From positions 1,421,587 through 1,485,586 of the forward strand of contig BCIO01000006.1 in assembly GCA_001599975.1 (NCBI GenBank): a stretch of 64,000 nt of DNA, written 5' to 3'. The translations under genes and the position numbers were made by a program. How positions within the stretch are numbered: the stretch's first letter is position 1; every line of letters begins with the position of its first letter. The notes under the pieces are model-generated. The model worked only from the letters and a program-made list of their open reading frames with translations, did not search any database and was not told the origin of the DNA. Below, one piece after another: positions 1 through 56,049 of this stretch. This DNA is from Cystobasidiopsis lactophilus (Eukaryota > Basidiomycota > Agaricostilbomycetes > Agaricostilbales > Chionosphaeraceae).

Positions 1-1397
1 GTGGCGGGTTTGGGCTTGGTGCGGAGTGTCAAGATTCGCTTGATCTTCCATGTGCTCTTTGGTCGCTTCTGAGGTGGTGCGGGCTTGGGAGGCGTTTCGG
101 ATGTAGACTGTAGCAGCGGGTTGGCAGTATCCGGTGGCACTGCGGGCGAGATGGGTTCGCCGGAGTTCGACGCTTCGGGCTGATCTGCTGGCGGCCCATT
201 CTCCTCCTCTTCCTCTGGCACATAAAGGACCAAGGGTATCTTTTGCACTTCGGCGGCCGTGAGCGGGCCCACGTCCGGCCGCTTCTCGCCGATGCCAAAC
301 GCCCGGAGAAACAGGATGACCTGTTGTGAGCGAGCGACTTGAGATCAGTACATGGCGAGTAAGCCCTGGGCTTGGAATCTTACCAGAGGCAGGAAAAAAA
401 CGATGGCGAAGAAGATGAGCCCCTGAAGGTCGCGTCCGTCAGGACACGCACGCGAGGCGGTGGTCGATGTGACCCACGATTTCCAAAGCGTAAAAGTAGC
501 CCCAACACAATGCAGCTCTATTGGCGCATGGTGTGAGTTAGGAGGGCAGCACGGTAATTGACGAACGTACAATGAACCCCAGAACACTGTTGTTTCGAGC
601 TTCGGTCAATGGCTGTGGAAGACAGTATCATGGCAGATATAAAAACGCACACGGAGGAGCAGTATGCTGGCAAGTCTTGCTGGAGTAGAAGAGGTAGTTG
701 CCTACGACGAACAAGGCGAGAGCGGCGGCGCCAAGCAAGTCGCTGAAGAAGCGAACCCGCTCGTCAAGCCTTGCATTGCCTAGGACCCGATTCTCTGGCC
801 TTGCCGGTTCATTCCGCTGTTGTCTGCATGGAACATGGGCGCGAGTTAGCGGTGTGACTTGCAAAGACCGAAGTCAAAGAGCGGGCGCCGGGGCACGAAC
901 CTGGGCGGTGCGAGGGTCGAGTAGAAGGACAAGGGGAACGACAGGGCAACCCGGCAGAGGTGTAGAGCCAGGTAGGTGCGCAAAGGCTTGTCGCAGGCGT
1001 CGTGGGAGGTCAGGGCGAGGATGACGATGAACGCCACAACCTGGCCGATGGAGAAGACGCCCCTGGCGAGCAGCGCCAGCTTCTTCTCGCCACCCAGCTG
1101 GGACAGTCCGGTCAACACCCTGGAGAAGACGGCGCGGCGGACCTGCAGCGCTGGGTACTCGGCCGCCTGCTGCGCTTCCTGTTGGAGCCCGTCGCCGTTT
1201 GCCTGGGCGGGCGGCGGGTAGCCTGCTCGATGGTCGTCCATCGCCACCAAGGCTATTGCATGATGGTCGACAGCGTGCACCAAAGGCGAGGGAGGAGGCC
1301 GAGGTGGACGGACAGGGTCAAGGCTCAGCGATTCCGGGGTTGCTCTCGGTTGGCCGTCTGCCACGCCCATGGTCACCGCCTCGCCTGACTTGCGCAT
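1..1397 (-). CDS. RING-type membrane E3 ubiquitin ligase, C-terminal part cut by window edge
   Basis: Six minus-strand exons can be joined: about 1397 or 1370 to 901, 823-651, 586-571, 517-478, 422-384 and 320-1 (open). The joined frame has an N-terminal polar region, a hydrophobic segment (GQVVAFIVILALTSHD), a second one (LGAAALALFVVGNYLFYSS), then AALCWGYFYALEI and GLIFFAIVFFLPL, followed by a soluble stretch containing LTAAEVQKIPLVLYVPEEE. That order of membrane helices and the AEVQKIPLVxYxPE segment are what I remember from fungal membrane RING-finger proteins. The RING itself would lie beyond base 1, so the E3 assignment is by family resemblance. Exon 586-571 is only 16 nt long but is needed to keep the frame and to complete a membrane helix. 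Start is either of two in-frame ATGs (1397, 1370). Expected role: membrane-anchored ubiquitin transfer. Confidence 0.62.
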
Positions 1398-25145: not shown

Positions 25146-26166
25146 CTACGACAGTGGCTGCGACTGGGTCTCCGTCAGGCGGCGCTTCTGCCAGAGCAAA
25201 ACCAGCTCCAGAATGAGATCATAGAGGCGCTGGAGGTCCTTTTCAACGCCCGGCTTGATGCTCATCCAAGAAAGAGCCGATTGCTCGGTCAAACTCTGAC
25301 AAGTGGTCCTCCACGAATTCGACGACTCGAAAGCCTCCCTCAAGCGCCTGGAAGAAACGATAAGGATCTGGTAAAAGGAGTTCTTGAGTGGTTGCGAGAA
25401 GATAATTGGAAAGGGTCTTACATTTGGGTCGCGGTTTTTGAGTTCGCGGACAGCTTTGTGCAGCTCTTGCTCGGAATCTCGAAGAAAGGGCTTCATTCTT
25501 TCTTCCTCAGAAGGATCTTGGGTTTGGTTCTTGAGCATTGACTTGAGGTCGTTGTGGCGACGCTCTGCGGTTTCGAAGCGGGCTTTGGTTTCTCGAAAGT
25601 CGGCCATGAGCAGATTGACTTCGCGAATCGTCTTTTGGAGCTTCATGCTATGCTCTAAGTAGTTGTGGACTGCATGAAACATTTGAGAGAGCATGTTGTG
25701 GACATCTAAGGCCTTGTGGAAGACATTGGCGCCGGAAAGGGCGTAGAGGTCGCGAATTTGACTGAGCAAGATCAGCTGCTGGTATTCCAGAGGAGAGCTG
25801 GAAGGGTCAATGCTGTTGAATGGCACATTAGTTTGTCTGTGAGATTGGCCTTGACTCAGTACCGCACCGATTGACGGGGCGGATTTCAGGGGAAACTTTG
25901 CTCGAGCGACTACCGCCCAACAGAGCAGGCATGTATGAGACCACCTTGCCGAGGACGGAGCTAAAGATGTCTGTACGTGGCTCAGGAGCAGGAAACACCT
26001 CCAAGTAGTCGCACAAGTGCGCAGAGAGGCAGCGCCGCATTATTTCTTCGATTATTTCTTCGAGATCCTTGTTGACTGGAAACTTGAGAGCCTGAGGCGA
26101 CAAGTCCTTCAGCTCTTGCAGGGTCATGTTGGCAAAGAGACCCTCGAAGTTTTGGTCGGCCTGCAT
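25146..26166 (-). CDS. array member A (most diverged), unknown coiled-coil protein
   Basis: Begins MQADQNFEGLFANMTLQEL; the early motif is HLCDYLEVFPAPEP, equivalent to DYVEAFPCP in B. The basic SKRLRG segment is missing and replaced by GGSRSSKV. The second block reads SSPLEYQQLILLSQIRDLY (YQQL where the others have DQL). A long charged coiled coil follows (NLLMADFRETKARFETAERR). A 54-base intron (GTAAGACCC to TTTTACCAG) near 25370-25430 is in frame with the ORF. The C-terminus has LQRLYDLILELVLLWQKRR. Lies tail-to-tail with the MLKL-like kinase, 280 bases apart. Function unknown. Confidence 0.7.
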
Positions 26167-26872
26167 GGCTGGCCAGAAGACTTGGTTGGCAGGTGGTGGC
26201 ACGCGGACAAAAGAAGAAGAAGCCCTCTTTGCTGGGCAACAGCGACCCGCGGCGGTTGCAAATGGCGCTCGAAGATATCCATTTGGATTCTGGTTTGTGA
26301 TGGATCTTTTGAGAGCGCTGCCATTCGAGCACAATGTGAGCGACCACTGACCGTTCGCTGGCCGCCTTGCCACTGCGCCTCGATTGATCCCAATATCGCT
26401 GGCCAAGTTCGTCAATAGGCGTCCATTTTATGACCTGTGTGCGGTTACTGGACACCTAGACGCGGTTTGCGAAAAGTTGATTTCACATGCCAACTTGAGC
26501 TGCCTTCAATGAAGGCGCGTCCAAATCGGTTGGCCTTTTTCGACGAGCTTTCGGGACTGCAACCGACGCCGTGACCAATGTCTTGTTGCGAATGATTGCT
26601 TTACTGCGCTTCCAAGATGCCGCTTTGTGATGCACGCTACCACCCCACCCCGCCGAAGATGCCACTCACCTTTGCGGGTGGAGAAGGCGGCAGGCTGATC
26701 TCTCTTCTTGGTGGTGCTCTCTTTTGTCCGCTAGACACCATCTCATCCTGCGACTCCAGAAGGTGACTTTGCTGCTCGCGACTTGGTTTGGCACTGTTCG
26801 TCTCGGCAATTTGAATCGCATAGTTTTGCTCCCGCCTCCGAGTTCCATCCCCCAGCTTTGTTTCCTATTAAA
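26167..26872. promoter_or_regulatory. divergent region between array member A and ADH
   Basis: 706 bases; the A frame remains open upstream to about 26415 without family similarity. Nothing else recognised; possible 5' leader exons of either gene. Confidence 0.35.
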
Positions 26873-28435
26873 ATGACGGCGGATCTCCCAAGTGAAATGC
26901 TGGCCGTGCGCTATTACAAGGCCAAGGACGTCCGATTGGAGAAGCTCCCGCTGCCCTCTTATGATGAAGACGAAGTTTTGATTCGGATGGCTTTCGGTGG
27001 CATTTGCGGGTCGGTACGTACTTCGGATCATGTCTCACTGCAAACACCTCCTGAAAGATGCGAACAGGACCTTCACGAATATCAACATGGACCAACTGGA
27101 ATGCCGACGCCCGAGAACCGTGAGTTGGCTCTTGACGTCTACGAAGCACAGGCATCCCAAAGCTTACTCTCGGCTTCAAAGCTCACCCTTGGACTCACGC
27201 TGAGACTCCAGTGCCGTGGGGCCATGAGTTCTCCGGCACAATCGTGAAAGTGGGCTCGAAGGTCAAGGACAAGGCAGTTGGCCAAAGGGTAAGATCCCGC
27301 GCGCAACACGATCCATACTACGATAGACACTAACAAACCGGACAGGTCGCAGTCAGGCCTACTGTGGGCTGTCAGACCTGCGCCAGCTGCAAAAAGGGAC
27401 TCGAGAACTTGTGCATCACCGGCTTTGCCATCCATGGCTACCACTGCCAATCGGGCGCCGGCTTGTCCCAATTTGCCAGTATAAAGGCCAACAACGTCTA
27501 TGTCTTGCCGGAACATGTGCCCCTCGATGTTGGCTGCTTGATCGAACCTTTGGCTGTTGGTGCGGGCCCTTCTCTTGGGCCTGATGTCCACGCCACTGAC
27601 TCCTAGATTCAGCCTGGCACAGTGTATCTCGGGGAAAATTGCAGAAGGGAGAGAGCGTGTGTGTCTTCGGTGGAGGTCCCAGTGAGCTCTCGTCGTTCGT
27701 TAGAGGTGGCGGAAGCACCACTCACACTCCTCTAGTCGGAGCCCTGGTCACTCGCTGCTTAAAAGGTACGAAAACGTTTTGGCAAATAACTTTAACACTT
27801 CTCAGGTTGCTTTTTTGGGGAGCAGCTCAAGGCGCCGGACACGTCTTCGTGGTCGAGCCGGCGGCGATCCGAGCCAAGGGTGTCAAGGCCGCCGGCGCCG
27901 ACACGGTCATCGATCCTTCAAAGGAGAAAGTGGAGGATGTGATCCACAAGCAGTTCCCTGGAGGCGTCGACCTCTCGCTGGATTGCGCCGGCGTGCCGAC
28001 GGGCGTGTCCGTCAACACTGCTCTGGCCATCACTCGCCACCAAGGACGAGTCGTCAGCGTGGCGCAATACGCATCGTTTCCACCCGTCGATATGAGCTTG
28101 CTCAACTACAGGTGCGCTCTTCCTCTCGCCTTGCCACACATCCGGTCCTGAATCTGGGACTGGTCCTCATCAGGGAGATCGAGTTGATCGGTGTCTTGTG
28201 CTACCTTGACTCTGACTACAAGGAGGTGATTCAAGCCGTCTCAGAGGGCCGCATCAACCTGGAGGGCATCATCACCGCCAAGATCAAGCTCGAGCGACTG
28301 GTGGAAGACGGCGTGGAGGAGCTCATCAACAACAAAGACAAGCACGTTAAGGTCGGTCCTTTCTCTCTCACTCAGGTTAAGGGAGCCAACCGGGATCTTA
28401 TGCGACCGAACCAGATCATGGTCCAGCATGCTTGA
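26873..28435 (+). CDS. zinc-dependent medium-chain dehydrogenase, butanediol/sorbitol dehydrogenase type
   Basis: Oxidises a secondary alcohol or polyol with NAD(P). Spliced reading: MTADLPSEMLAVRYYKAKDV, GGICGSDLHEYQHGP (catalytic-zinc Cys; DLHEY as in yeast Bdh1), PVPWGHEFSGTIVKVGSKV (zinc Glu/His), VGCQTCASCKKGLENLC (four Cys of the structural zinc), PLDVGCLIEPLAV joined to AWHSVSRGKLQKGESVCVF, GGGP plus a split Rossmann segment GALVTRCLKAQGAGHVFVVE, then DLSLDCAGVPTGV. About eight exons. Sits on the strand opposite to the array between members A and B. The C-terminal 15 residues after HVK are uncertain: either read straight to 28435 or spliced. Confidence 0.88.
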
Positions 28436-28612
28436 TTTGGATTCTAAACTTGCGCGCCGCAATGCAAATTGTACAAAGCCCTTCCCCTCGTGAAAAGCGA
28501 ATGAGTCGTCAACGATCGTGCCCGTGAACCAGAAAAATGCAGGGAAGAAGTTGCGAGGAAGAAAGTGTGGTGGTGGTGGTGGGCATGATGTGGTGCTATG
28601 AAGGGGGAGCCG

Positions 28613-29607
28613 TCATGCTTCCAGCAATTTGCTCTGCTTCCACAAGATGCACAGATCGAGGATGTGAGAGTAGAGCTGGCTGGTGTTGCTCTCGATGACG
28701 GACTGGAGAGACGGCGTCGAGGCCATGATGGCTTTGTTGTGAGCGAGCACACTGCGGAGCTGCTCGTCGATCTCGTCGAGCAAGACCTGGACTTTGGCTT
28801 GGAGGACGGGCAGGTTCTGACAGAGTTCGTCTGTCAGTGAGAACGGGGCCCAAAAGGAAGACGAAGAAAAGGTGCAAGACGTACGATTTGGCTGGCCTCC
28901 GCGGTGGTTCTCTGGGTCATGGCCTGCAGGTCGGAGCTAGCAGCGGACAAAGTCTGGGCGTATGCCGCGCTGGACTTGCGAGTGAAGACCTGCTGGTCCC
29001 GTTGGGCCAACAGAGCTCGGACGTCGGCCAGCTTGGCCTGCAGCTTGTCGCGGGTCTGGCCATGGCGATCGCAGGCCTTGTTCAGCTCTTCCGTGGCGAT
29101 CGCGCACTCGCTCTTGAGCCTCCAGCCTTTGACGATGCTCGTCACGAAGCCGACGTAGTCCTCCTGGGTGCGCCGGGCCTCCACGACCGAGTGCCTGGCG
29201 TTTGCCCAGAGCGACAGGATGGCCTTGAGCAGGGTGAGCTGGTCTCTGGCGAGGGGTGATCTGACAGCAGTATTCGATTTGTTGGTGCGCCTGCAGCTCC
29301 CGATGCAGTTAGAGGCCGCGCACAACAACACAAACAGGGTTGTTTATCACCTGCGCTTCGAGGGCAAGGCTTCGACGTCGCTGCTGATGCCTCGCAGGCG
29401 CTTCGACTGGCGCGCGGTGGGCTGCTGATAAGGCGACGCAGAGGTGGAGGGTGGGCAGGGGAAGGCTTCGACGTAGTCCCAAACTTGACACGAAAGCGGG
29501 TTCAACGTCCTCGCCGCCCGTCGCATGTCGTCCGCCGTCTTCAACGGGTGCACAAAGTCGTCCATCTCTCGCTCGGTCTCGTCAGATAGTGCTAGTAGGG
29601 CGGCCAT
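28613..29607 (-). CDS. array member B, unknown coiled-coil protein
   Basis: Starts MAALLALSDETEREMDDFV (an ATG 14 codons earlier is possible). Exon 1 carries CQVWDYVEAFPCPPSTS and QSKRLRGISSDVEALPSKR, then the intron. Exon 2 begins RSPLARDQLTLLKAILSLW and continues as a long coiled coil (ATEELNKACDRHGQTRDKLQ). The last exon is NLPVLQAKVQVLLDEIDEQ and ends TSQLYSHILDLCILWKQS just before the stop. About 290 residues, no signal peptide. SKRLRG plus the trailing KR looks like a nuclear localisation signal. Function unknown. Confidence 0.75.
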
Positions 29608-29934
29608 CTTGGCTTCGCAGCGGTCGAACGAGGAGAAGCCGTGCTTCATCCAGGTGCCTTCCTAGGAGGTGGCGCACACAACAAGTGGGAGCACTCCCGC
29701 CATGCTGCTCCAGTCGCTAGCAACATAACGGTGTAAAAGCCTGGCATTACAAAGTGAGCAGAGAGCTGATTCCACAAAGTGTTAACACAGAAAGCGCGCA
29801 ATTTGCCACCCAACCACCCATCCTCACCGTCGAAACCCATAATGACCCATGCCCTAGCAGAACCGCAAAAGGAAACCCATAGAAAACAGACACCAAGAGC
29901 AAGAGAGTAGACCTCCGTGAGCGCTGGCTTCGTG
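29608..29934. other. spacer between array members B and C
   Basis: 327 bases upstream of B and downstream of C. No coding signal or family remnant seen. Confidence 0.4.
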
Positions 29935-30911
29935 TCAAGTTGCCACCGACATCTTTCGGCGCTTGTCCCATAAGACCACGAGGTCGAGGATGGCCTCGTG
30001 TAGTCGGCGTGTGTTGGCGTGGAAGATGGGAGCGACGTAGTACCTCTTCTCCGACATGTAGTGGGCCCAGTCCAACATGAGGCGCTGCTCCGTCCGCGCC
30101 TCGTCCAGCAGTCCGTGTATCCTGGCCTGCAATCTGGGGACGTACTGAAACGAGTCGCCTCAGTGAGCTGCTCGACGACCGACCACAGACTTGACGGTAG
30201 CACTCACGCCGTTCAGCTCTGGCAGACCGGTTGGCTTGGCAGCAGCCTTCTCCATGTCGTCCAAGACGGCCTTCATCGCGTTGTCGCTCGCCATAGCAGC
30301 TCTTCGAGTGACGACTTTATGGCAGCGCTCAGCCAGTAAAGCCCAGATGGTGTCAAGATTGCGGATGAGTGCCGCCTGCTCTTCACGGATGCGAGCGAGA
30401 ACCTCGCCCAGCACCTTGGCTACCTCCTCCGACCGACGAGAGCAGTATAGCACATATTGCGCGCTCTTGAGGGAGCGAACGAACGCCTCTTGCAATTCGA
30501 GGGCCTCTCGGACCGAAGGCCCCGCGCTCGACCAAAGCTGTAAAATTGATGCCAGCACAACGAGCTGGTCCTGGTCGATGGGGGACCTGGCTGTTCCTTC
30601 TCCTGGTACGTTGCGCCTGCGGTAGTCTAAGAGGATGTTTGGCGATTTCCGCTTCGCGCCCACCTTGTTCGTTTGCTTTGGGGCAGCCCGGCTTGGCTCT
30701 CGCACTTGATGCCTCGCAGACGCTTGGATCGTCTCAACACAGGCTCATAAACGGGATCCGGCATGCAGTCGGCGTAGGCAAACACTTCGAAGTATAGAGA
30801 GCGGGCAGCCTTTCGAAAGTCTCCTTCAGTGCGACAGGAGTTCAAGAGATCCACCACCAGACGCTCCTCTCTTTCTTCCTCAGTCATATCCGGGGCTAGA
30901 ACATCGGCCAT
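29935..30911 (-). CDS. array member C, unknown coiled-coil protein
   Basis: Starts MADVLAPDMTEEEREERLV. Exon 1: LYFEVFAYADCMPDP, then LRRSKRLRGIKCESQAGLPQ and SKRT at the exon end. Exon 2: RSPIDQDQLVVLASILQLW, AGPSVREALELQEAFVRSL and a coiled coil with RIREEQAALIRNLDTIWAL. Last exon: VPRLQARIHGLLDEARTEQ, close to the equivalent part of B, ending TRRLHEAILDLVVLWDKRR then KMSVAT and the stop. B and C look like the closest adjacent pair. Function unknown. Confidence 0.75.
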
Positions 30912-31168
30912 GACAGTTTCAATAGAAATCAGCAAGGTGGAAGAGCGCGTAAGAAAGAGAGTTCAAGCGGAGAAGCTTCCCCCGCTGGCCATGGACCGGT
31001 GGCGAATGTGCTGACCAGTGGGATTATTCGACTATCAGCCTCGGCAGTCAGATCCAATTGCATTGCATGAGGAAGAGCTCGCAAGTTAGGCCGGCAGCAC
31101 ATCGATCGAGAGCAGCTTTGTATAGAGACCGAATCATGCCAAGCAACACAAACGCCGGGATTGAACCT

Positions 31169-33311
31169 TCAGTGAGCGGGCTCGACGGAAAGCGGAAACT
31201 GGAAGCGGTTCTGCTTGTCGTACTGTTTCTTGAGCTGGGTGAGACGAGGGTAGTTGGAGTTGTAGTAAACGGAAGGAGAAGGCAAGGTGTGATTGTGGCC
31301 CAAGCGATCATCAGCATAATTGATGTAGTAGTGGAAAGGCCCGTCGGTGTTGTCTTGGAGAGCAGCAGCTAGTTTGTCCATGAGGTCGAAGCCAGACTGA
31401 GGGAAAGGCAAAGCAGGCGCCACGCCGAAGAACAAAATGTTTTGAATGGCATCTCGAAAACCAAACCTGCGTGCACAAAGTTGAGATAGGCGCTGGAACG
31501 ACTGCTTCAAAGGAATTGCTTACGCTGTGCTGGGACCGGGATCGCATTGAATTTGGAGTTGGAACCACCCCACACCTCGAAAATGCTGGCCCAAGCAACC
31601 TGTTGCTCTCGTGTTCAGCCGACAAAGGTCAATGTTCTGAGTGCTTGGAACCCACCAAACCCGAAATCGGACCCTCATTGGCAGCAACATCCATGTAAGC
31701 TCGGACTGATTTCGGACTGTAGCGAACAGTGTTGGCGAGCGACTTAATATAGGCGGCAGCATGGTCATTGACAGGAGAGCCTGAGTCTCGCACATTCAAT
31801 GGGTGTACTGAAACATTGGAGAGATCGACTGACTGTTAAGAGGCACTCCTTGGGCATTTGCCACCACCCAGTCGAGCCAGCTCAGCTCTTCCACAGTGCT
31901 TGTATCGGGAGTAGGTAGCTTAGCCAGCAATGGGCCGATGATCTGATTGAATTTGTTGGCTTTCTTGGTCGTGAAATAGCCGCCGTGCTTCGGTTAAGCC
32001 TTGGGTCAGCTTCAGCCGTCCAAAGCGTCACCAAGAGAACCTCACGATTGTTATGGTAACAAAGCCAACCTGCACGCTTCATAAGATGGTGCACGCGAAG
32101 CGAGCGAAAAACGAGTAACCTACAGTGGTAGATGTGACGTCCGGGCCAGTCCCGAAGTTGGCCGGATTGCCTGACAAAGTAAAGTCTTGCAGCTCGAGGA
32201 AAATCTTGGTGGCGATGGCGGAAGTGACGTTCCAGACGTAGCTATACTGAACGGCCAGCTCCGGAGCAGGCTCAGTCGAGAAGTAAAAAGCCGTGATGAT
32301 GCCTATGCAACTGTTCAGCTGGCGTCTGCTCGAGAGCCGAAACTTTGCACATACCAAAAGAGTTGGCAGCTCCTCGGACAGCCCAGAAGAGGTCTGGGTC
32401 CGACTTAGCCGTGACGTGCTTGATGGAGCCATCGGCCAAAACGATGTCAACGGCAACAGTGTGGTCCAACAGCAAACCCCTGCGAAAATTTGAGCGCCGA
32501 TTCCAAGACCGAAACGATGCCCAACGCACCACATTCGGGACGTGTGGGGGTTCACACCACCCATGGAAGCGTGTCTGCTCGTACCAAGTTCAATATGCAG
32601 TGAGCCAGTTCATAGCCTTGGCCTTACCCTCCAACTCCAACCCACGGGCAGGACCCCATGGGAAGGGCACGCTCGTATTTGTTCAGAGCAGTGTACACTG
32701 ATCCAAGTCGATTGCCGGTGCCAACTTTGACGACGCCCGATGAGGAGGTGTACTCAACCTGGGAAGTCAGGTTAGCTTCATCCTCACTTCCTCCTCATAG
32801 TGGAGCCTCACCTCGCTGAAATGCTTAGTATCAATCACCAATGCCGGCTTTGTCTCGTCGCCACCATTGCCCTGACCAACTGCAAGCTGGTGTCAGAGCG
32901 TAATTTGAGGTCGGGCAAGCGAAACTTCACACTTAGAGAATGGCCTCCCGAGCGGCCTGCAACTCGAACATTGTAGTTGGTAGCGACAGAGAGACAGTCA
33001 GAAACTTGTTTGGGGGTTGTCGGGTAGCAGAAGCCAGCCGGTTGGATGAACTCGAAACGTAAATTGTCTGCCGAGCAGGCCAGTCAGTCACTCATTCCAA
33101 TCACGATCTGTTGCAGTCAGGCACACAAGGAGTTGTCAAATTCGCAAATTGCGCGTCTCCTGGCAGGTAAACCTCCACGCCCGTGTGCCGCAGGTCTGTG
33201 AGCTGGTTTCAGCACATGTGAATGCTCGTCTTCGGACTTGTCGCACCCGACGCAAAGGAAGCCAAGCAGACGCTGAAAAAGAGTGGCAGGATATAAAAGA
33301 ATGTGTGCATG
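31169..33311 (-). CDS. berberine-bridge-enzyme-like FAD-linked oxidase 1 (secreted)
   Basis: VAO/BBE-family oxidase, usually acting on sugars, alcohols or alkaloid-like small molecules with O2. Signal peptide MHTFFYILPLFFSVCLASF. Then TGVEVYLPGDAQFANLTT, VRVAGRSGGHSL (His for covalent FAD), FSEVEYTSSSGVVKVGTGNR, LPMGSCPWVGVGG (Cys for the second FAD bond), GVNPHTSRMW, LDHTVAVDIVLADGSIKHVT and DLFWAVRGAANSFG (FAD domain), and the BBE C-terminal motif SVYYNSNYPRLTQLKKQYD with the end FQFPLSVEPAH. About eight exons. Both bicovalent-flavin residues are present, so it looks catalytically competent. Tandem duplicate of the next gene. Confidence 0.88.
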
Positions 33312-33765
33312 ATGGTCGCAAGGAGCAAAACAGAGCCGCGGCATCTTGAAGCTGAGGCAGCACGAAATGGGCACCGCATCTCCTCTCCAAGAAGGCACGA
33401 GAAAGGCGAGCCCATCGACGCGTTTGGTCAATCCATGAATACAAAATGCTAATGCAGGAGACCGAGGCCGAAAAGCAGAGGCTGACGCGCATCGCTCAAT
33501 TCACAGAAGTTGGCCCCGGTCGCTCGCGGCACTGGCAGGGTGGGCTTCTAAAGCCGGGTTGGCACAACGGCACGATTGGACAAGGTAATCAAGCCTTTCA
33601 GTTTGGATTAACCAAAATGTAGAGCCAGCGGGAGAGCAAAAAATTTGAAAATGAGGCGACTCTCAGTGGCGGGACGAAGTCAAGAGTCGCCGGGGCAAGA
33701 ATCTGACTAAAAATCCGCCGTGTTATGTCTGCATTGCAATGTATAAGGCTTTCCTCAAAATGTAC
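33312..33765. other. spacer between the two FAD oxidase genes
   Basis: 454 bases, upstream of oxidase 1 and downstream of oxidase 2 (both minus). No coding signal recognised. Confidence 0.4.
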
Positions 33766-35729
33766 TCAATGCGCAGGCTGAATCGAGAACGGGAAATTGA
33801 GACGGTTGTGAGGGTCGTAAGTCGATTTGAGGCTTCGAAGTCGGTTGTAGTTGACCCCGTAGTAAATGGAGGAATTCGAGGTCAGCCTATCATCTGGAAT
33901 GTTGATGTAGTAGCTCCACGGTCCAGGAGTGTGGTCCTGAAGGGCGGAGGCGAACTTTTCCACCAGGTCGTAGCCAGCCTGCGGGTATGGCAGGGTATCT
34001 CCGACGGCATACAGCGTGATACTGTAGATGGTGTCCCGATTCCCAAAGCTGTGCGGCGTTGTCAGCGTTCAGTCTCTTGCGGAGGAAGGGAAGCGCCTAC
34101 GCAGTGCTCCTGACTGGGATGGTGTTGTACTTTGAATTGGAGCCGCCCCAAAGCTCAAACGTGGTGGCCCAGAAAACCTGTGAGTGCCTGTTGTAAGAAT
34201 GTAGTCTGCCAAAGCAGAACGATAGGAGAACTCACAACACCACCGCCGATGACTGGCGCGACGTTCGCCGCCACATCCATGTACGCGCGCACCGAGGCCG
34301 GGGTGTAGCTGACCGAGTTGCCCAAGGATTTGACATACACGTTATTGGTGTCGTTGATTGGATCGTTGTTCAAAGGAACGCCTTGACCATTGGCTGCCAC
34401 CCAGTCGATCCAGCTGAGGTTGGCGACCAGGGTGCTGTCCGGCTTGGGTAACTTGGCCAGCAGGGGAGCGATGATCTTGTCGAACTTGTAGTCTTTCTTG
34501 CTCGTAAAATAGCCACCGTGAACATTGATTGTGATCCAGCCCGGCTACGATCCAACCTCAAGATGCTGCTAAGCTCACGTTCCTGTCGTTGATCGATGCA
34601 CACATACAACAGACGAGGTCACATCTGGTCCAGTTGCGAAGTTGGACGGAATGCCAGATTGCACAAAAGCCTGGGTTTCGAGGAAAATGGAGGTGGCGAC
34701 TTCGGCGGTGACGTTCCAAACGTAATTGTGCTGAACGGCAATCTCGGGAGCAGGTTGAGTGACAAAGTAAAAGGCCGTGACAATTCCTTCATTTGGTCGT
34801 TAGACCGGATCGAACTGCGTTGGAAAATGTCAGGCTTACCGAAAGAATTGGCTGCGCCGCGAAGAGCCCAGAACAAGTTGGCATCGGATAGAGCCGTGAC
34901 GTGCTTGAACGTGCCGTCCGGAAGGACGATGTCAATGGCCACCGTCTGGTCCAAGGCCAGACCCCTAGGTGCAAGCTTTCAGCGAAAGGTCCACCAGAGG
35001 CAAAGAGTAGTATGGACTGACCACATCCGTGAGGTGTGCGGGTTGACGCCGCCTTGAGAGCATTGACCGCCGACACCGACCCAAGGGTAGGAGCCGATTG
35101 CCATGGCGCGCTTGTAGTCGTTCAGCGCCACGTAGACTGCTCCCAATCGGTTGCCCGTTCCGACTTTGACAATGGTCGTGGAAGGAGTATAAGTGATGTC
35201 TCGAAAGTATTTCGTGTCAATGATGAGCGCCGGCGGAGCTTCAACGCCACCGAGCCCCTGGCCGACTGGACGGAGTTCTCAGCCCTCGCAGTGGTCAAAG
35301 AGCAGCCAGGGGATGGCTCACCGAGCGAGTGGCCTCCAGAGCGACCGGCCACACGAACGTTCCATTTGTTCGCCACCGAGAGACAAGCGGAGATCTGAGC
35401 GGTCGTATTGGGGTAGGCCAAGGCAGCAGGTTGGATAAACTGGTAGGCTTGATTGTCTATCGATAAGTTGATTTCAGCTGCCCATCGTCAAGAACGCGTC
35501 AATGGGTCGTGCTTACAGATCAGGGTGAGATTGGAGTACTGGGGGTTGCTGGGCAAATACACTTCAACACCAGTCTTGATCAAATCTGTGGGTGTCCTCG
35601 GAAAAATATCAGCACGCAACCACGCAATCGTTCGAACAGAGTGAGCTCACCAGTCTGGAACGAGGAGGACGTGGTCGAGGCATGGCAAAGCCTCCAAAAG
35701 AGTGGCAGGATGTAAACGAGCGTGTGCAT
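33766..35729 (-). CDS. berberine-bridge-enzyme-like FAD-linked oxidase 2 (secreted; Cys-to-Tyr at second flavin site)
   Basis: Paralogue of the preceding oxidase with the same layout and similar ends. Signal peptide MHTLVYILPLFWRLCHAS. VRVAGRSGGHSLGEPSPG keeps the FAD-linking His; at the second attachment site it reads AIGSYPWVGVGGQCSQGG, so Tyr stands where oxidase 1 has Cys (GSCPWVGVGG). FAD-domain text DQTVAIDIVLPDGTFKHVT and NLFWALRGAANSFG is intact, as is the C-terminal SIYYGVNYNRLRSLKSTYD ending FPFSIQPAH. Splicing parallels oxidase 1. Probably a mono-covalent flavoenzyme; a changed substrate pocket is inference. Confidence 0.87.
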
Positions 35730-36278
35730 GTTGGTCGTGCGAAAGCAACAGCAGCTGAGCGAAAGGCCGAACGCGTCCCGCGGCTCACAAATGAAACCAC
35801 AGCACGCACATGCTGCAGCGCAAAAGTGAGGGACAATCAACCGAAGGCGGCCGTCGATCCTTGCGCCACCTCAGAACGCAGAACAGTTCCCCTCAAGCAC
35901 CGAAAGATACCGAGACAGACTGTGGCAATGAGTCAACCAAACTGGCTGCGAAATCCGAAGCACTTTGGCTGATGGCGACGAGTCCGAGGTTGCAGATTCG
36001 ATGGCATCGCGAAAGGCAATGTGGGCAAAAGTGAACGGGACATGTACAGCAGCCCTCAAGCGGGGATGCGCCTGCCATTACCAGCGGGATGCGACTGTGA
36101 AGAGCTAACTTGGCAAAAATGATGATGGTGCGAAGTGGTGAATGAGGCGTGAAATGGAAAGAGATTCGGCCTATGCTGGACGGCGTGTGGTTGTGGTGGA
36201 TCTTGTGAAATGCAAAGAAGTGAATTGGTGAAGCTTGGCGTGATGAAAATGGGAAAAGCTGGAGGCGAGTGGAGAAGG
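35730..36278. other. spacer upstream of oxidase 2
   Basis: 549 bases between oxidase 2 and array member D. No coding signal or family fragment recognised. Confidence 0.4.
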
Positions 36279-37291
36279 CTAGGCACCAGGGACTGATTTC
36301 TGGCGGCCCCAGAGCACGACGAGGTCCAAGACGATGTACTCCAGCTGGCGCATGTTGCTCTCGATAGCAGGCCAGATCAGAGTCTTGAGGTCGATGATGG
36401 TGTCCGTCTGGGCGTCGACGCTTGCGATCTTTTGGTCGACCTGGCGCATCAGGGCGTTCAATCTCTCACTCCGGCCTTGCAGATCCTGTTGGTGCCATCA
36501 GATTCAGCCTCTCGACCCAGGCGGAGGGAAGATGGAAACAAACCTCGGCCTTTTGGCAGGCGTCCAGCGCCGCACAGCACTCGTCCACCTCTGCCCTCGC
36601 CCTCTTCATGTCCTCCGCGTAGGTAGCCCGAGACCGCCTGGTCCGCACCCGACTGCTCTTGTCATCCATCAAGGCCTTCCATCGATCGTACGCCGCTTGG
36701 TAGGTGCTATAGGCCGCCCTGACGCGCGCCAGAGAATCGCTCATGAGGTCGCTGCACTTGTCGCACTCCTTCTTGGAGAGCCAGGCCTCCTTCATGCCGG
36801 TCAAGAAGCTGATGAGCAGCTCCTTCGCTTCCAAGGCTTTGACCGCGGTGGGGCCGGCTCTGGCCTGGAGCTTGAGCAGCTGGCCCAATAGGACGAGCTG
36901 GTCTTGCTGCAATGGCGTCCTTTGAGCTGTAGGGGCCGTTTGATTTTGCTTGCGTCTGTTAATGACAAGGTCAGCACCGCCTGGGAGGAGGTCAACATGT
37001 TGTTTACCGTTTAGTGGGCCTCTGCGGCTCCTCGTCCTCCACTTCGACGCCGCGCAGGCGCTTGGATCGTCGCGGTCCCGGCAGCTGGGCAGACGTCGAG
37101 GCTGGGCAGTCAAAGTACTCGACGAAGTCCCAGACGTCGACTGAGAATGGATTCCACGCGCGAGCGGCTTGCTCGATCTCTTCGGGGCCCGTCAGCTTGG
37201 CAAAGGTGACCTCCAGCTCAGAGAGCATCTCGGACTCAGTCTTGCCGACAGACGGGCGCGAGGAGGAGGAAGCGGGCGAAGACGCGGCCAT
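36279..37291 (-). CDS. array member D, unknown coiled-coil protein
   Basis: Starts MAASSPASSSSRPSVGKTE. Exon 1: SVDVWDFVEYFDCPASTS and PRRSKRLRGVEVEDEEPQ ending PTKR. Exon 2: RTPLQQDQLVLLGQLLKLQ, AGPTAVKALEAKELLISFL, then a charged coiled coil with many Lys/Arg (DDKSSRVRTRRSRATYAED). Last exon: RLNALMRQVDQKIASVDAQ and MRQLEYIVLDLVVLWGRQK before the stop. The best example of the family consensus, together with B. Function unknown. Confidence 0.75.
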
Positions 37292-37816
37292 GGCTAATGC
37301 GGAATGAAAAGGCCCAGCCACAGCTGCGAAGCGAAGCCTCGAGGCTCGAGGTCCAGGAAGTGGTGGCGTCGGACCTGACCCAAGATCGGCGCCGAGACCT
37401 GGCCGAAGAGGCAAGTGCGCGTCGTTGAGACCCTTCCAGGGCAAGGTAATCGTACAAGAATGCGTATTCAACAACAAGGGGAGGATCTGCATCGATGACC
37501 CCATCGAGGCCGTCGTCGCTTGCCCGTCGGTCGATATGAGACGCCTCAGAAGAAAGGAAGGAGCGGTACGATGTGGAGAACGTGAAGGTGAAATGATGTA
37601 CAGTGCTGGGGGTGCCCAGGAAAGAAAAGTGTCAGTGGCGAAAGTTGGGAGAGGGCGAAGAATCGAATCGGCCATTGGGCCGAGTAAGGAATTGGGCCGA
37701 GTAAGGAATGGCATAGGAGGTCCTGATTTGCTCAAGTGGACCAGCGTCAGCGAGGTCGCTAAGTCAGACCGAGCGCTCACCTCTTGAACATGGTTGCCGA
37801 AGAATGCCGGACGACA
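37292..37816. other. spacer between array members D and E
   Basis: 525 bases upstream of D. The D frame stays open upstream to 37780 but with no family resemblance. A short direct repeat (GGCCGAGTAAGGAATxGG) occurs twice near 37678-37710. Confidence 0.4.
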
Positions 37817-38789
37817 TCACTTTCGACGGCGCTTCGCTGGTGGCTCGACATCGACCTCTTTGCGAGCTTTCCAAAGAATGATGAGCTGGAGGATGCGGTG
37901 GTGGAGGTGATCGATGGCCTTCCTGAAGCGGCGCTCGGCCACAGCAGATTCCAGGATTAGACCAGACACGAGGAGGCTGAGCCTGTCGCCCTCTTGGACA
38001 ATATTTTGGCCCATTTGAATGAGCTCATTGCGGCGGCGCAAGAGGTCCTGTCAGCGAAGCAATGTCAGACCCGGGTCAAAGGTTTCTTAAGATAAAAAGT
38101 TAGACACCTCCGCGTCCCACTTGTCGAGCTCCGCGCGCGCTTCTTTCAGCTCCTCTTCAATCGCCAGACTCTCGCCGTCCAGTTGACGAGACTCTTCTCA
38201 GGTGTTGGTCTCCTTGGCGTGCAGTTGCGCGAGCTCCATCTCTTGCCGCAACAAGTCCCGCTCAAGCGCGAACGCCGCGGAGTATTTGGCCAGGTCTGCA
38301 GTTACAGAAGTGACCAGAGTAGTGGCTGTGTCCTTGGCGGTAAGGATGGCTTTCGTGCCGGACATGAAGGCTTCGGCATCGCTCTTGATCGCAGAGGCCT
38401 CTTGAAAGCTGCCAGCAGACGAGTAATAGAGGGAGAGTAGAGCGTGCAGCTCTATGAGCTGGTCTTGGTCCAATCCGGTCCTGGGAAGCCGTCTGCATCG
38501 GTTCCGAAGTCAGCCCTGTTTATACAAGAACTGAAGGGTGCTGTCACCTTTTGCGCGGTGGGAGGCCATTGAGATGCTCGGCTGGGATACCCCTGGTCCT
38601 CTTGCTGCGTCTGAGCGGACAGTCATCGACTGGCGGCCGCGCCTCGCACTGGGGGAAGCTCTCCAGGAATTCGAGCGCGGTGCCAATCGAACGGTGAATT
38701 CGCCGCGCTCTGACTGGAAACGGGTCGTCGTTCGTGACTGATTCCAGGATCTTGATTTGGTCCTCAAGCGGCAGATCCGTCATCGGCAA
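37817..38789 (-). pseudogene. array member E, probably disabled by an in-frame stop
   Basis: Exon 1: MPMTDLPLEDQIKILES, GTALEFLESFPQCEA, RRSKRTRGIPAEHLNGLPP ending RKR. Exon 2: RTGLDQDQLIELHALLSLY and a coiled coil reaching MELAQLHAKETNT, where TGA at 38200-38198 interrupts the frame; the same frame resumes at once with EESRQLDGESLAIEEELKE and goes on to a normal last exon (RRFRKAIDHLHHRILQLII, LWKARKEVDV, basic end AKRRRK). No good splice donor or acceptor pair skips the TGA. Either a recent nonsense change, a truncated protein, or a sequencing error. The rest of the gene has not decayed. Confidence 0.65.
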
Positions 38790-38988
38790 GGTTGGCCGTC
38801 AAGAGCAATTCAAGTCTTGCGGCGAGCGCGGGCTCGAGCTAGCCTCAACGAGTTGGTGGGTGACAAGATTGTGGTTCTACCGACGTAGTCGTTTATCAAG
38901 ACAGCAGATGGAAAAGCAAGCGAGTAACATTGTACAAGGGACTAACGATCTGATCATTCTGATGCAATGAGCCAAAACATTGTGCCCG

Positions 38989-39934
38989 TCACGATTCACC
39001 GCCCTCCGTCCCCTGGCTGGCTTTCCAGAGGATGACGAGCTGAAGGATGAGCGAATGGAGTGTCTTGACATCATCGTGCAGAGAGGGGAGAAGTTTCTTG
39101 AAGTGGTGCACAGTGTCTTCATAGCGCTTGTCAGTGTCATCGCGGGCAACGAGCCAGGTCTGAAAGGACTCTTGATGGCGAGCTCGTAGCTCCACGTGAC
39201 GCTAAATCAGATTCTTGAGGCGCATTCGTGACTATCAAAGGTTTAATACATACAACCAGGCCTTCTTCATCAATTGCAGCGCGAGCGGCTGCTAACTTGA
39301 CGTTGAGAGGTTCGATCTCCTTCATTTTTTCCTCCAAAGAGGTCGACGTCGGGTTGGTGATCATCTCATGCAACATTGCCGTTTTTTCAGAGGACAGATC
39401 GCAGATGTGCTGACGCAAGGCGACCAGTCGACTTGACTCCTTGATTCTCTCCTGTCCTTCCTCTAGAAGGGTCTTGCCCTGTTCATGAAGGCTTCGAAAA
39501 GTGGTCGCAAGTGTAGGAAGGTCAACGTCGATGTCGGCCGCAGCCGAAAGAGTGGCTCTGGGCCGGTAAAGTCGCAGCAAGCTCCAAAGATTAGTGAGCT
39601 GGTCGCGGGCTATGCCTGAGCGGGGCGCTGCACCAAGTTTACGCCTGAGCACGATGATGCGTGTCAGAGGACGGCAGGGTGTATACAGAAGTCAGGCGGC
39701 CCACCTCTTTGCAATAAGTGGCCGGCCACAAAATGCCTCCACATCCTCCGGCGTCCCATCTCTCTTCCTCTTGGATCCAACGGGCACCGAAGAAGATGCG
39801 TTTTCTTGAGGTGCAGGGGTGGGAGCATCAAAAGTCCGAAGATAGAAGCCTGTCCACGCCAGCATAAAGCGAGCGTTTGCGGCAGCCACAGGAGAGACCG
39901 GTGCCAACAGCTCATAGACTTCGCTCGGCAGCAT
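38989..39934 (-). CDS. array member F, unknown coiled-coil protein
   Basis: Starts MLPSEVYELLAPVSPVAA, continuing MLAWTGFYLRTFDAPTPAP (early motif variant) and GSKRKRDGTPEDVEAF, exon ending LIAKR. Exon 2: RSGIARDQLTNLWSLLRLY, then coiled coil. Last exon after an acceptor GATTTAG: RHVELRARHQESFQTWLV and VKTLHSLILQLVILWKASQ. The MLP(S/Q)E(V/A)Y start is shared only with H, so F and H form a subgroup. Function unknown. Confidence 0.72.
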
Positions 39935-40202
39935 GTTCGGTCAGAATGCAGAGGGGTCGACGTGGCTAGGTCGAGTTGGCGGAACGAGAAAGAGCCTGGT
40001 TTTCGCCGCCCACTGTCCTGGCTGGCCTTTGGACGATCTGTGGTTCAAAGTTCCAAGGAGGTTTATGAGCAAGGCTGGCATACTAGACTATATAGCTTCA
40101 AGACAGTCCCGATCCTCGATTCTTGAACAGTGCTTTCGCAAAAGTCGCCACCCCAGGCACCCCAGCATTCTTGAACCGCTCCCTAAGTGCCAACGAAGCG
40201 CC

Positions 40203-41198
40203 TCAAACCTCCAAAGAGGCCTTGCGAAGAATAACCAGCTGGACAATACAGTGGTCCAGAAGGTCAATGTCGGCGGAGAGCTGAGGTAAGATGGCGGACG
40301 CTTCGGCGCCGAGTCGTCCGAGTTCCTTCAGCAAAGCCAGATGTTGGGGAATGGGAGCGCACCAGTCGCCTACGCTGTTGAGCACCGTCGCTAAGTGTTT
40401 GGCTAGAAGCTATCGACAAGTTCAGATGTATCAGCGATGCGATGCTGCTCGACAGATGAACGAACCTCAATGTCAATAGACTTCAGTCGAAGGATGTCTT
40501 CCCTCTCTTCAGTAGTAATCGTGGTCGCTACATCCAAAGATGCGCCGGCCGATTCCTTTGCAGAGGCCGGTCCCATTTTTTCAAGCTCTTGAGCCCGTCG
40601 GTCTTCAGCTTCCTGCACTCGATCACAGAGGTCGTTGTAATGGGAAAGCTCTTCATACGCTTTGAAAAGGGGAGCCATCAAGTGGGCAAGGCTGTCCCGC
40701 CGTTTGCCACACTCCGAAAACACTTCAGCCGACCTCGACAGATTCTGACCACATTTTGCAGCCCTTGGAGCTGCTTCGCGGTATAGTTCCAAGAGTTGTA
40801 ACAGGAGAGCGAGTTGGTCATGCTCCAATTTGCTCCTAGGCCGCCTTGGCCGCGTACTGGTACAGTACCTTAGCTCACGCACGGACCGGAAAATTTTGCG
40901 CGAAGCATACCTGGGCGATTCGATTGATGGCACACTTGTAGCCAACCTATCCACCACCGGGCTAATCTGACCAAAAGTCGCTACGTGCGTCTCCAAGAAG
41001 CCTCGAATTTGACGGGATGATTCGCGGTGCTGACCAAGTTTTCTGTCCGTTTGCCGCAAAACGTCTCGCATGGCGACGAGTTCGTTGCTGTCTCGCAAAG
41101 CGTCTTGCATGTCGGACGATCGAAGGTCTTGGTCGTTCGGCACGAACAGAGGTGCGACAGGACTGGCCCAAGTCTGAAACGCTGTGCAAGCCCAGTCG
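40203..41198 (-). CDS. array member G, unknown coiled-coil protein, 5' exon unresolved
   Basis: The frame SDWACTAFQTWASPVAPLFV resembles the start of F (LAWTGFYLRTFDAPTPAP), but I could not find an ATG exon that joins to it; MQDALRDSNEL at about 41110 is the first clear ATG. The basic SKRLRG exon end is absent. A central insertion of about 90 residues precedes the block RSKLEHDQLALLLQLLELY. An intron (GTTCGTTC to GTCGATAG) joins SIDIE to LLAKHLATVLNSVGDW; the end is IDLLDHCIVQLVILRKASLE (Arg instead of Trp, as in H). Confidence 0.6.
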
Positions 41199-41358
41199 CT
41201 TAGCCTTCGGCCTGTAAAACGGCCAATGCACCTGAACTCACCATATGTAGAGAGTCCAGGCTAGCCAGTAGATGTACGCCAGTCAACTACTCGTCCAGAA
41301 AGTCCAATGATGGTAGAGTGCACACATCGTGGCGAAAGGTCGGCGTGGCAACCTGACC

Positions 41359-42329
41359 CTATGTGGGCTGGGATAGGCTGGCCTTGCGGAGGATGACAAG
41401 GTCAAGGATGAGGCGATTCAGCCTTTCCATTTCCGACAAGAGTGCGATCAAGACTTGTATCGAAACACGGCAGACGTCAAAAAGTTCGAGACTTGTGGCT
41501 TGTTGCCGGGCGGTGAGCGCGGTCCAAGCGGCTGTTCGTGCTTGTCTACGCTCGTGAAGCAGCTACATACACAGTGTTAGTCCGTATAAGATTGAGCATC
41601 GGCAACAAAGCGAGAAAGAGTGAACTCACAGCCAAGGTTCGGTTTGACTTCTTCGCCAGCACCGCCTGGATCTCCGCTTGCAGCGATCTTGAGGCGGCCA
41701 TATACTTCTCTAAGTCTTCTTCTTGACCGGACTCTGGCCGGAGCGCTTTGTTGGCTTCCATCAGTTTCTCTAACTGAACGTCCATCTCTTTGATCTCTTC
41801 CGACTCCTCGACTACGACTAGGTCCAGCTGTGATTCGAGCAGCCGCAAGGATTCTGCTGCTTGATCTCGAGCGTCCATCAAAAGGGAAGAGAATAGCTCT
41901 TCGAATTGTGCCGCCCATCTAGCGCCAGCTTTGCCACGGTGACAGAGCAGCAGCAGCTTTCGAAGAGTAGCGAGCTGATCGCGAGCCAGACTCGACCTTG
42001 GTGCTCCCACCGAATCGTGCTCTAATCTGGACGCAGTCAACAAGACGAGAGTCTGAGTGGATGCCACCATGCCGTGCGGGGATGTCGGCGCACCTCTTGG
42101 ATTGGGAGCTCTCGTCTGGACTGTCTACCCGTACGCGTTCGCTCATCGTAGACAGGCCGCTCGAGATATCGTCGGAAGCGGGCTCGTAGGCAAAGCTGGG
42201 AGAATCGATGGACGGCCCGGGCTCAAACGCGGCCATAATCTGATGGGCCCAGCTGAGCAGGATTTGCGCATAGCTAGCCAGAGGAGATTGAACGGATTCG
42301 AGCATGGTGTACGCTTCTTGGGGTAGCAT
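41359..42329 (-). CDS. array member H, unknown coiled-coil protein
   Basis: Starts MLPQEAYTMLESVQSPLAS (ten codons after another ATG), continuing LLSWAHQIMAAFEPGPS. The basic motif is degenerate (SSQSKRCADIPARHGG). Exon 2: RSSLARDQLATLRKLLLLC and a coiled coil with acidic stretch VVVEESEEIKEMDVQLEKL. Last exon: LLHERRQARTAAWTALTAR and MERLNRLILDLVILRKASL. Its 5' end faces NHP2 across 272 bases. Function unknown. Confidence 0.72.
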
Positions 42330-42601: not shown

Positions 42602-43351
42602 ATGGGGAAGCGCACGCTGGATGAGATCGACTCTGCGCCCGCTGCTTCGCCGGAGAAGAAGTCGAAGAAGTCAAAAGAGGCGGAAGTGAACGTGGCCGAT
42701 TTGTGCCCGATTGCGCAGCCGTTGGCGGAGCGCAAACTGGCCAAGAAGGTGTTGCGCGCCGTCAAGAAGGGTCAGGCTTTGCCTCTGTGGGTCTGGCTGT
42801 GGACTGACATGGGCAAGGAGTAGCGTCGAAGCACAGGCAGATCAAGCGGGGCATCAAAGAAGTCACCAAGGCGCTCAGGAAGAACGGCAAAGGGTGCGCT
42901 TGCCTTTGCCCTTCAGATTCTCACTTGGATCTGATTTCATTGGCTGGCCACAGAATTGTTGTGTTGGCAGCTGACATTTCACCCATGGACGTCCTCTCTC
43001 ACGTCCCGGTGCTCTGCGAGGACGCCGACTGCCCCTACATCTGGGTGCCCTCCAAAGAATCGCTGGGCCAAGCATCGGCGACCAAGCGGCCCACGTCTTG
43101 CATCATGATGGTCATGGAGACTGACGCTACCAACCTGAAGGGCAACAAGAAGGCCGTCGCCATTTTGCAAGAGGCTGCCAAGGATGTCGAGAAGGGCAAG
43201 GAGCTGGAAGAGTACAGTGCGTTGTCATTGCACCTTTATGAGATGACACACTCTTAAAAGACCTCATGCACCGCGCACAGAGGACTCGTTCCAGGAGGTG
43301 TACAAGGCCGCCAAGGACCTCAACACCGCCGCCGCCATCCCGACCTACTAA
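42602..43351 (+). CDS. NHP2: H/ACA snoRNP subunit NHP2 (L7Ae family)
   Basis: Core protein of H/ACA snoRNPs that direct pseudouridylation of rRNA. Four or five exons. Lys-rich N-terminus MGKRTLDEIDSAPAASPEKK, then LAERKLAKKVLRAVKKG spliced to SKHRQIKRGIKEVTKALRK, VVLAADISPMDVLSHVPVLC, CPYIWVPSKESLGQA and ATKRPTSCIMMV, nearly residue-for-residue the L7Ae fold and RNA-binding loop of yeast Nhp2. Ends AAAIPTY and stop. Acts in the nucleolus. Confidence 0.93.
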
Positions 43352-55842: not shown

Positions 55843-56049
55843 CTGGGGATGGAGGGGTGGATTGGAGGCGAGGGAGGGAAAGCGAGATTAGAAGTCGAGG
55901 AAGAGCGAGGCAGGGATCAGCTCCCTTATAACCTCGTCTAACGGCATAACGGCGACCTTAAATTGGAAGGCAGTCAATCATCTAGTGGCATCACGGCCAG
56001 GCGCGTTTCGTAACTTTCGTCCGCAGACGGCGACTCCCGCAATCATTGC

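Follow-up and report, generated by a model that had tools for sequence, protein, structure and literature searches.

Eight divergent paralogues at a single genomic locus keep their geometry more closely than their sequence

Among described coiled-coil proteins, one study (PMC5082667) presents a class that diverges in sequence, keeps its length and acts as spacers, and another (PMC8598163) reports that synaptonemal complex proteins have diverged in sequence but conserved both their length and their coiled-coil structure. Here we describe a cluster of eight genes, P1 to P8, in a window of 64,000 nucleotides (C6:1421587-1485586) taken from a genome assembly of 22.1 Mb in 8 contigs; positions given without a contig are those of the window. 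A sequence-only reading of this DNA had placed eight genes of one orientation at 25146..42329, and these coordinates are exact to the base: the array spans from the stop codon of P1, the leftmost gene, at 25146 to the ATG of P8, the rightmost, at 42329, with 8/8 genes on the minus strand. Beyond what was noticed in that reading, geometry, more than sequence, has been conserved in this family. The array is a clean single-genome case of paralogues that have lost most of their likeness in sequence and kept their module length, helical repeat, kink positions and exon structure. The genes were modelled as follows.

25146..26166, minus strand: P1, exons 25868-26166, 25422-25812 and 25146-25367; 303 residues
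28613..29607, minus strand: P2, exons 29351-29607, 28885-29290 and 28613-28816; 288 residues
29935..30911, minus strand: P3, exons 30664-30911, 30208-30616 and 29935-30144; 288 residues
36279..37291, minus strand: P4, exons 37008-37291, 36544-36955 and 36279-36485; 300 residues
37817..38783, minus strand: P5, exons 38548-38783, 38108-38492 and 37817-38047; in-frame TGA in exon 2
38989..39934, minus strand: P6, exons 39705-39934, 39254-39644 and 38989-39201; 277 residues
40203..41110, minus strand: P7, exons 40911-41110, 40466-40868 and 40203-40409; 269 residues, uncertain start codon
41359..42329, minus strand: P8, exons 42094-42329, 41630-42026 and 41359-41562; 278 residues

To evaluate relatedness, leave-one-out profiles were used, in which each held-out piece was scored against 500 shuffles of itself; the training sets omitted exon 2 of P5 and exon 3 of P1. 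Exon 2 scored above every shuffle in 8/8 genes (P5 being tested up to its stop codon), exon 3 scored above all 500 in 8/8, and full-length proteins were recovered in 7/7 cases, with P5 left out. Exon 1 was recovered in five of the eight genes (P1-P5); exon 1 of P6, P7 and P8 was not recovered from the other members, since 17, 201 and 57 of 500 shuffles, respectively, reached their scores. P1 gave 12.2 bits for exon 1, 19.9 for exon 2 and 33.4 for exon 3, with 0/500 shuffles reaching any of these, and the corresponding values for P5 were 16.5, 35.0 (exon 2 to the stop codon) and 30.0. The eight genes are confirmed as a paralogous family, related beyond chance. When motifs were read by eye in the translations, the C-terminal block was present in 8/8, its final residue being W in six members and R in P7 and P8, and the block R(S/T)x(L/I)xxDQLxxLxx(L/I)LxL (the DQL block) was present in 7/8 and degenerate in P1. 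Of the three shared signatures that had been proposed, these two therefore hold, the DQL block in its L/I form, since the strict L form first written for it occurs in only 4/8, but the early aromatic-acidic motif at the N terminus is clear only in P1-P5.

The span that runs from the DQL block to the final W or R measured 179, 179, 180, 179, 178, 176, 180 and 176 residues in P1 to P8, counting the stop codon of P5 as one position. This length therefore stays between 176 and 180 residues in 8/8 members (mean 178.4, coefficient of variation (CV) 0.9%), and from the start of exon 3 to the W or R there are 59 residues in 7/8 and 62 in P7. The length of exon 1 ranges from 66 to 99 (CV 12.7%). Pairwise identity is 16-34% across the 21 pairs formed by seven members. 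MAFFT introduced gaps into exon 3; in its place we set the members in an ungapped frame fixed at the C-terminal block. Periodicity was measured on hydropathy averaged across members with no gaps inserted, with 1000 rotated and 1000 permuted controls. The 59 residues of exon 3 displayed an in-register hydrophobic period of 3.55, and the 60 residues from DQL a period of 3.45, and in both cases the signal was reached by 0/1000 rotated and 0/1000 permuted controls.

Residues that disfavor helices were also found at shared positions. Counts of Pro/Gly and of helix-unfriendly stretches cover seven members, P5 being left out of the Pro/Gly counts, and positions are numbered from DQL. Pro occurs at +155 to +160 in 6/7 members, and as many in any 6-wide window were obtained in 1/2000 simulations; Pro/Gly occurs at +15 to +19 in 6/7, a number reached in any window by 43/2000 simulations. 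These two positions mark short end segments and give the module a nearly mirror-symmetric layout. Beyond +60, 5/7 members have their most helix-unfriendly 9-mer within +78 to +98. AlphaFold2 was run on exon 2 and exon 3 of P4 separately, with seven alignment rows each. The exon 2 model has a helix at 14-106, a break at 107-110 and a helix at 111-136 (mean predicted local distance difference test score (pLDDT) 85.6, predicted template modelling score (pTM) 0.40), and the exon 3 model has a helix at 2-64 (pLDDT 93.7, pTM 0.50). In P4, DQL starts at residue 18 of exon 2, which puts the predicted break at +90 to +93 of 179. The predicted module thus consists of two long helices interrupted close to its midpoint, and P4 provides the type example:

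36279..36955, minus strand: predicted helical module of P4, with the exon 2 helix at RTPLQQDQL, the break about 90 residues on and the second helix, then intron 2, then the exon 3 helix through VLDLVVLW

The common three-part exon layout that had been read from the DNA holds without exception, as in 8/8 genes two introns, the first in phase 2 and the second in phase 0, separate three exons; the introns are 42-68 nucleotides long and have GT-AG ends. In P1, exon 1 is 299 and exon 2 is 391 nucleotides long; the acceptor of intron 2 was picked because it leaves an open frame, a choice that preceded recognition of the length rule, and the alternative likely acceptor leads to an early stop. The seven members with open frames, all except P5, encode 269-303 residues. 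In P5, exon 2 is interrupted by a single in-frame TGA (38198-38200), which may reflect a pseudogene, read-through, other splicing or an assembly error. Intergenic gaps are 205-525 nucleotides inside the blocks P2-P3 and P4-P8. The description of the locus as a tandem array of eight applies with one amendment, for the eight paralogues are clustered but the array is broken twice by other genes, between P1 and P2 by a zinc alcohol dehydrogenase gene and between P3 and P4 by two FAD (flavin adenine dinucleotide) oxidase genes. Because introns have been kept and all genes have a common orientation, the array probably arose by tandem duplication at the DNA level rather than by retroposition.

The age of the family was considered from its synonymous sites. 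The proportion of synonymous differences (pS) was 0.65-0.83 in all 21 pairs of the seven members, and synonymous divergence (dS) was infinite in 11/21. The ratio of nonsynonymous divergence (dN) to dS was 0.36-0.74 in the ten pairs with finite dS, none above 1, values that are unreliable so near saturation; the least diverged pairs, P2-P3 and P2-P4, had dS of 1.5, dN of 0.70-0.74 and dN/dS of 0.47-0.49. With synonymous sites near saturation, dN/dS was not usable as a test for positive selection. A tree of the seven members has long branches and no strongly supported fork (0/4 inner branches). Since synonymous sites are close to saturation or beyond it, recent amplification is not shown, nor is the rapid evolution that had been proposed for these genes, as the copies may simply be old. 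Either the duplications are old or the locus may be fast-evolving; our best reading is that the family is old.

Searches for relatives returned only this locus. When a consensus protein was compared with the whole genome, 17 matches with an expectation value (E) of 0.022 or better were found, all within C6:1446762-1463602 and touching 8/8 genes; the search scores only the best candidates (23 here), so that these counts are lower bounds. The earlier picture of local amplification with strong divergence agrees with this result. A six-frame search with three exon profiles took in the window together with 200 kb of further sequence, made up of 100 kb flanking it and 20 kb apiece from five more contigs. 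Below E 1 it returned the eight genes alone, and the rows that followed were at E 1.1 or worse. Genome queries with single members (P2, P6, P4, P8, P7 and P3) gave two weak matches beyond the array, one on C4 and one on C3. Neither was retained as a further copy: on the frame of the C3 candidate (E 0.0145 with P4) the exon profiles scored at most 2.0 bits, and it reads as a generic coiled-coil, while the stretch around the C4 candidate (E 0.4 with P6) gave chance-level profile matches (E 1.4 or worse), none of those listed being at the candidate's place.

A Pfam scan of six members, with P1 and P5 left out, placed no family near its cut-off, and no family was weakly matched by more than one member, which agrees with the view that the family is not recognizable as a described domain. 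No relatives were found in 5.77 billion proteins by searches that require short exact words and could miss a fast-diverging family; one of these searches scored only the 8000 candidates with the most shared words. As a control, the NHP2 protein encoded at the right edge of the array obtained 105 matches among 309 candidates in the same database, many of them from annotated fungi, and the database therefore does contain spliced fungal proteins. Sequence searches of solved structures returned only weak or generic helical matches, and Foldseek found no match in the PDB for the P4 exon 2 model. The best solved-chain match of the exon 2 profile was PDB 6f6p, the coiled-coil of Rab-3A-interacting protein (E 0.0004), trailed in the list by other helical proteins and a designed protein; kinship with Rab-interacting proteins was rejected, as the match covers generic coil (profile positions 55-132) and not the DQL block. 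In the open-access literature no fitting family was named, which does not show that the family is unpublished. The family is an orphan, found at one genomic locus by these searches, and is best read as lineage-restricted. Short-word homology searches find little of such a family, and it is length and periodicity that reveal it.

Basic residues are concentrated around the exon 1/2 junction, where K+R make up 22% of residues versus 13% elsewhere. Two KRxR-type clusters lie near this junction in P2-P6 (5/8), and one in P7. No signal peptide was seen in a crude hydropathy scan made without a signal-peptide predictor, in which the maximum 19-residue Kyte-Doolittle mean (KD19) in the first 30 residues reached 1.18 in P6 and stayed under 0.7 in all other members. 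Because paired basic clusters are present in 5/8, a nuclear structural or regulatory role would fit better than recognition or defence. A common promoter element was also sought, and rejected: the 7-mer and the 8-mer shared most widely among the eight upstream regions did no better than chance, being equalled in 99 and 137, respectively, of 200 random sets.

Taken as a whole, the explanation we favor, and to which we give an even chance of being right, is that this is an old, locally duplicated, lineage-restricted family encoding nuclear helical-hairpin scaffold proteins. Each protein would begin with a short N-terminal motif, recognizably common to 5/8, followed by a linker around the exon 1/2 junction that would carry a bipartite-type basic signal in 5/8, and then by the module of ~178 residues, in which two long helices of nearly equal length would be separated by a break near the middle. 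The chain may fold back at this midpoint break, which would give arms of near-equal length and bring together the two conserved motifs, so that the DQLxxLxxLLxL start and the ILDLVILWK end would form a conserved cap and the freely diverging arms a spacer of fixed length. Paralogues might then pair through caps or arms, or the arms might bind different partners, with the conserved ends providing a common contact and the divergent arms member-specific contacts. In such an arrangement, in which nuclear location, pairing and a scaffold role would all apply, the cluster would provide the nucleus with several related adaptors. Should the scaffold role in the nucleus be borne out, these genes are a source of natural variants for testing how far a fixed-length helical spacer tolerates change.

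Several observations weigh against this explanation. P1 and P8 have no basic cluster at the exon 1/2 junction, and P8 contains, within its C-terminal block, a 19-residue stretch at 235 with a mean hydropathy of 1.64, the only such stretch above 1.6. The periodicity is uneven along the module. In exon 3 much of it is owed to the conserved C-terminal block, columns 1-36 alone being reached by 21/1000 rotated controls; DQL+15..60 alone was reached by 59/1000 rotated controls and +40..95 by 23/1000. Over its final 55 residues, exon 2 had no common periodicity (809/1000 controls reached it). The coiled-coil middles that had been proposed are accordingly upheld only in part, by family-wide periodicity over exon 3 and over the stretch of 60 residues that starts with DQL, but not by a crude per-protein heptad test, which was significant for no member (7-55 of 100 shuffles reached the score). 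Near the midpoint, Pro/Gly occurs at +82 to +92 in only 4/7, and the most helix-unfriendly 9-mer is off-centre in P2 (+61) and P3 (+112). The module may also be either a hairpin or a bent rod, given that the exons were folded separately and that pTM was only 0.40 and 0.50. An alignment that set the rows of both exons jointly against the P1 frame was of poor quality.

The genes beside and inside the array, and two other loci of the window, were as follows.

11740-12387, minus strand: matches to AAA and to a Cdc6/ORC-like ATPase lid; perhaps an ORC1 gene
22258-24862, plus strand: gene convergent with P1, its first exon weakly MLKL_N-like (E 0.011, below cut-off), a later exon encoding a kinase of the tyrosine kinase-like (TKL) type (2.5e-7) with HGDLKAVN and DFG intact, then a proline-rich tail
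26868-28435, plus strand: the zinc alcohol dehydrogenase gene lying between P1 and P2, opposite in strand to the array
31169-35487, minus strand: the two FAD oxidase genes inside the array, in tandem and of berberine-bridge type, with a BBE match in the first and FAD_binding_4 in the second; DNA stretches of the pair are 73-77% identical
42602-43351, plus strand: spliced gene for NHP2, of the H/ACA small nucleolar ribonucleoprotein, at the right edge of the array
56014-57808, plus strand: two long frames with no Pfam match, the first holding a P-loop-like GDPGIGEP stretch, noted by eye; the pair may resemble fungal Crinkler-type proteins

The gene at 22258-24862 is a candidate fungal MLKL-like kinase. 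Database matches that cover at least 80% of NHP2 are at most 56% identical to it, with up to 77% over shorter parts; close relatives therefore seem to be missing from the database, and the lineage seems poorly sampled. The short introns of the array genes and the spliced NHP2 gene suggest that the DNA is fungal. In a tree of 26 rows, NHP2 groups with one row each from Atractiella and a metagenome and with Microbotryomycetes, at modest support (88/89), which suggests a placement near Pucciniomycotina, as judged from one short protein.

Other explanations were weighed against the nuclear scaffold. The proteins could be rigid coiled-coil spacers of a chromosome structure, such as a component of the meiotic axis or of synaptonemal type, with length kept while sequence diverges, and the signature does resemble that of synaptonemal complex proteins as PMC8598163 describes it. 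The basic clusters in 5/8 would suit this role, and P6 has a weak match to Pfam Synaptonemal_3 (PF15191; E 0.088, 13.2 bits versus a cut-off of 27), the only match to a synaptonemal complex family. However, only one of the six scanned members has this match, which falls short of the cut-off, and other members match unrelated helical families, likewise short of it. To our knowledge, eight clustered copies would also be unusual for meiotic axis or synaptonemal-type components, and we consider this explanation unlikely.

We find it still less likely that the array is a polymorphic recognition family, acting in allorecognition or genome defence, in which variable arms would read self and non-self partners and diversity would be kept by selection. 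A cluster of eight diverged copies, of which one contains a stop codon, would be in keeping with such a family, as would the convergent neighbor with its weak MLKL_N-like exon and TKL-type kinase exon. However, no dN/dS value exceeded 1 in the ten finite pairs, though these are near saturation, no Pfam family passed its cut-off in the scanned members, and a module length held within about 2% argues for structural constraint. Two STE3-like pheromone receptor loci were found at C4:1994434-1995499 and C1:2329659-2330000, and Homeobox_KN matches at C1:4761248 and C3:1185043, while the array is on C6; the locus was therefore rejected as a mating-type locus, and no Pfam homeobox match was seen in the 6/8 members scanned. 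With these matches on other contigs and no signal peptide by crude hydropathy, the recognition or defence role that had been suggested for the array receives no direct support. A combinatorial form of the idea, in which hairpin arms of almost equal length would pair member-specifically, by way of their divergent surfaces and the common end caps, as a nuclear recognition code for self and non-self nuclei or foreign DNA, possibly with the neighboring MLKL-like kinase gene as its executor, seems to us very improbable.

The copies might instead be redundant relics of an old family that is decaying after loss of function, with residual similarity inherited rather than maintained. The in-frame TGA of P5, the exon 1 sequences of P6-P8 that cannot be recognized from the others and the long tree branches are what such decay would leave, but in 7/8 genes the reading frame runs uninterrupted through three exons whose introns have GT-AG ends, and module length is held in 8/8 despite synonymous sites near or past saturation, so that we rate this as improbable. 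Effector families are commonly clustered, orphan and divergent, and the P8 stretch of mean hydropathy 1.64 might also be cited in favor of such a role, but secreted or membrane-associated effectors amplified in tandem are very unlikely here, as the crude scan found no strongly hydrophobic N-terminal segment, with basic clusters present instead, and the six scanned members matched no Pfam family over cut-off.

The reading of the array as a set of nuclear helical-hairpin scaffolds can finally be placed beside known systems. Basidiomycete homeodomain mating-type proteins are likewise clustered, divergent and presumably nuclear, but no homeodomain match was present in the six array members scanned. 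The Rab-3A-interacting protein coiled-coil (6f6p) has a long helix in common with the family, with the DQL block outside the match. Like synaptonemal complex proteins, the array family has kept length and coil pattern while its sequence diverged, and its basic clusters are compatible with the nucleus; unlike them, it is a multi-copy cluster without a profile match over cut-off. Spacer coiled-coils share with it a near-fixed length at 16-34% identity, an in-register repeat of ~3.5 over part of the module and predicted long helices, whereas the eight-copy cluster, the conserved blocks at both ends and the predicted break in the middle set the array family apart, and the likeness is one of kind. 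These comparisons support the view that the family works like the length-conserved spacer coiled-coils and the synaptonemal complex proteins, and not the view that it belongs to either.

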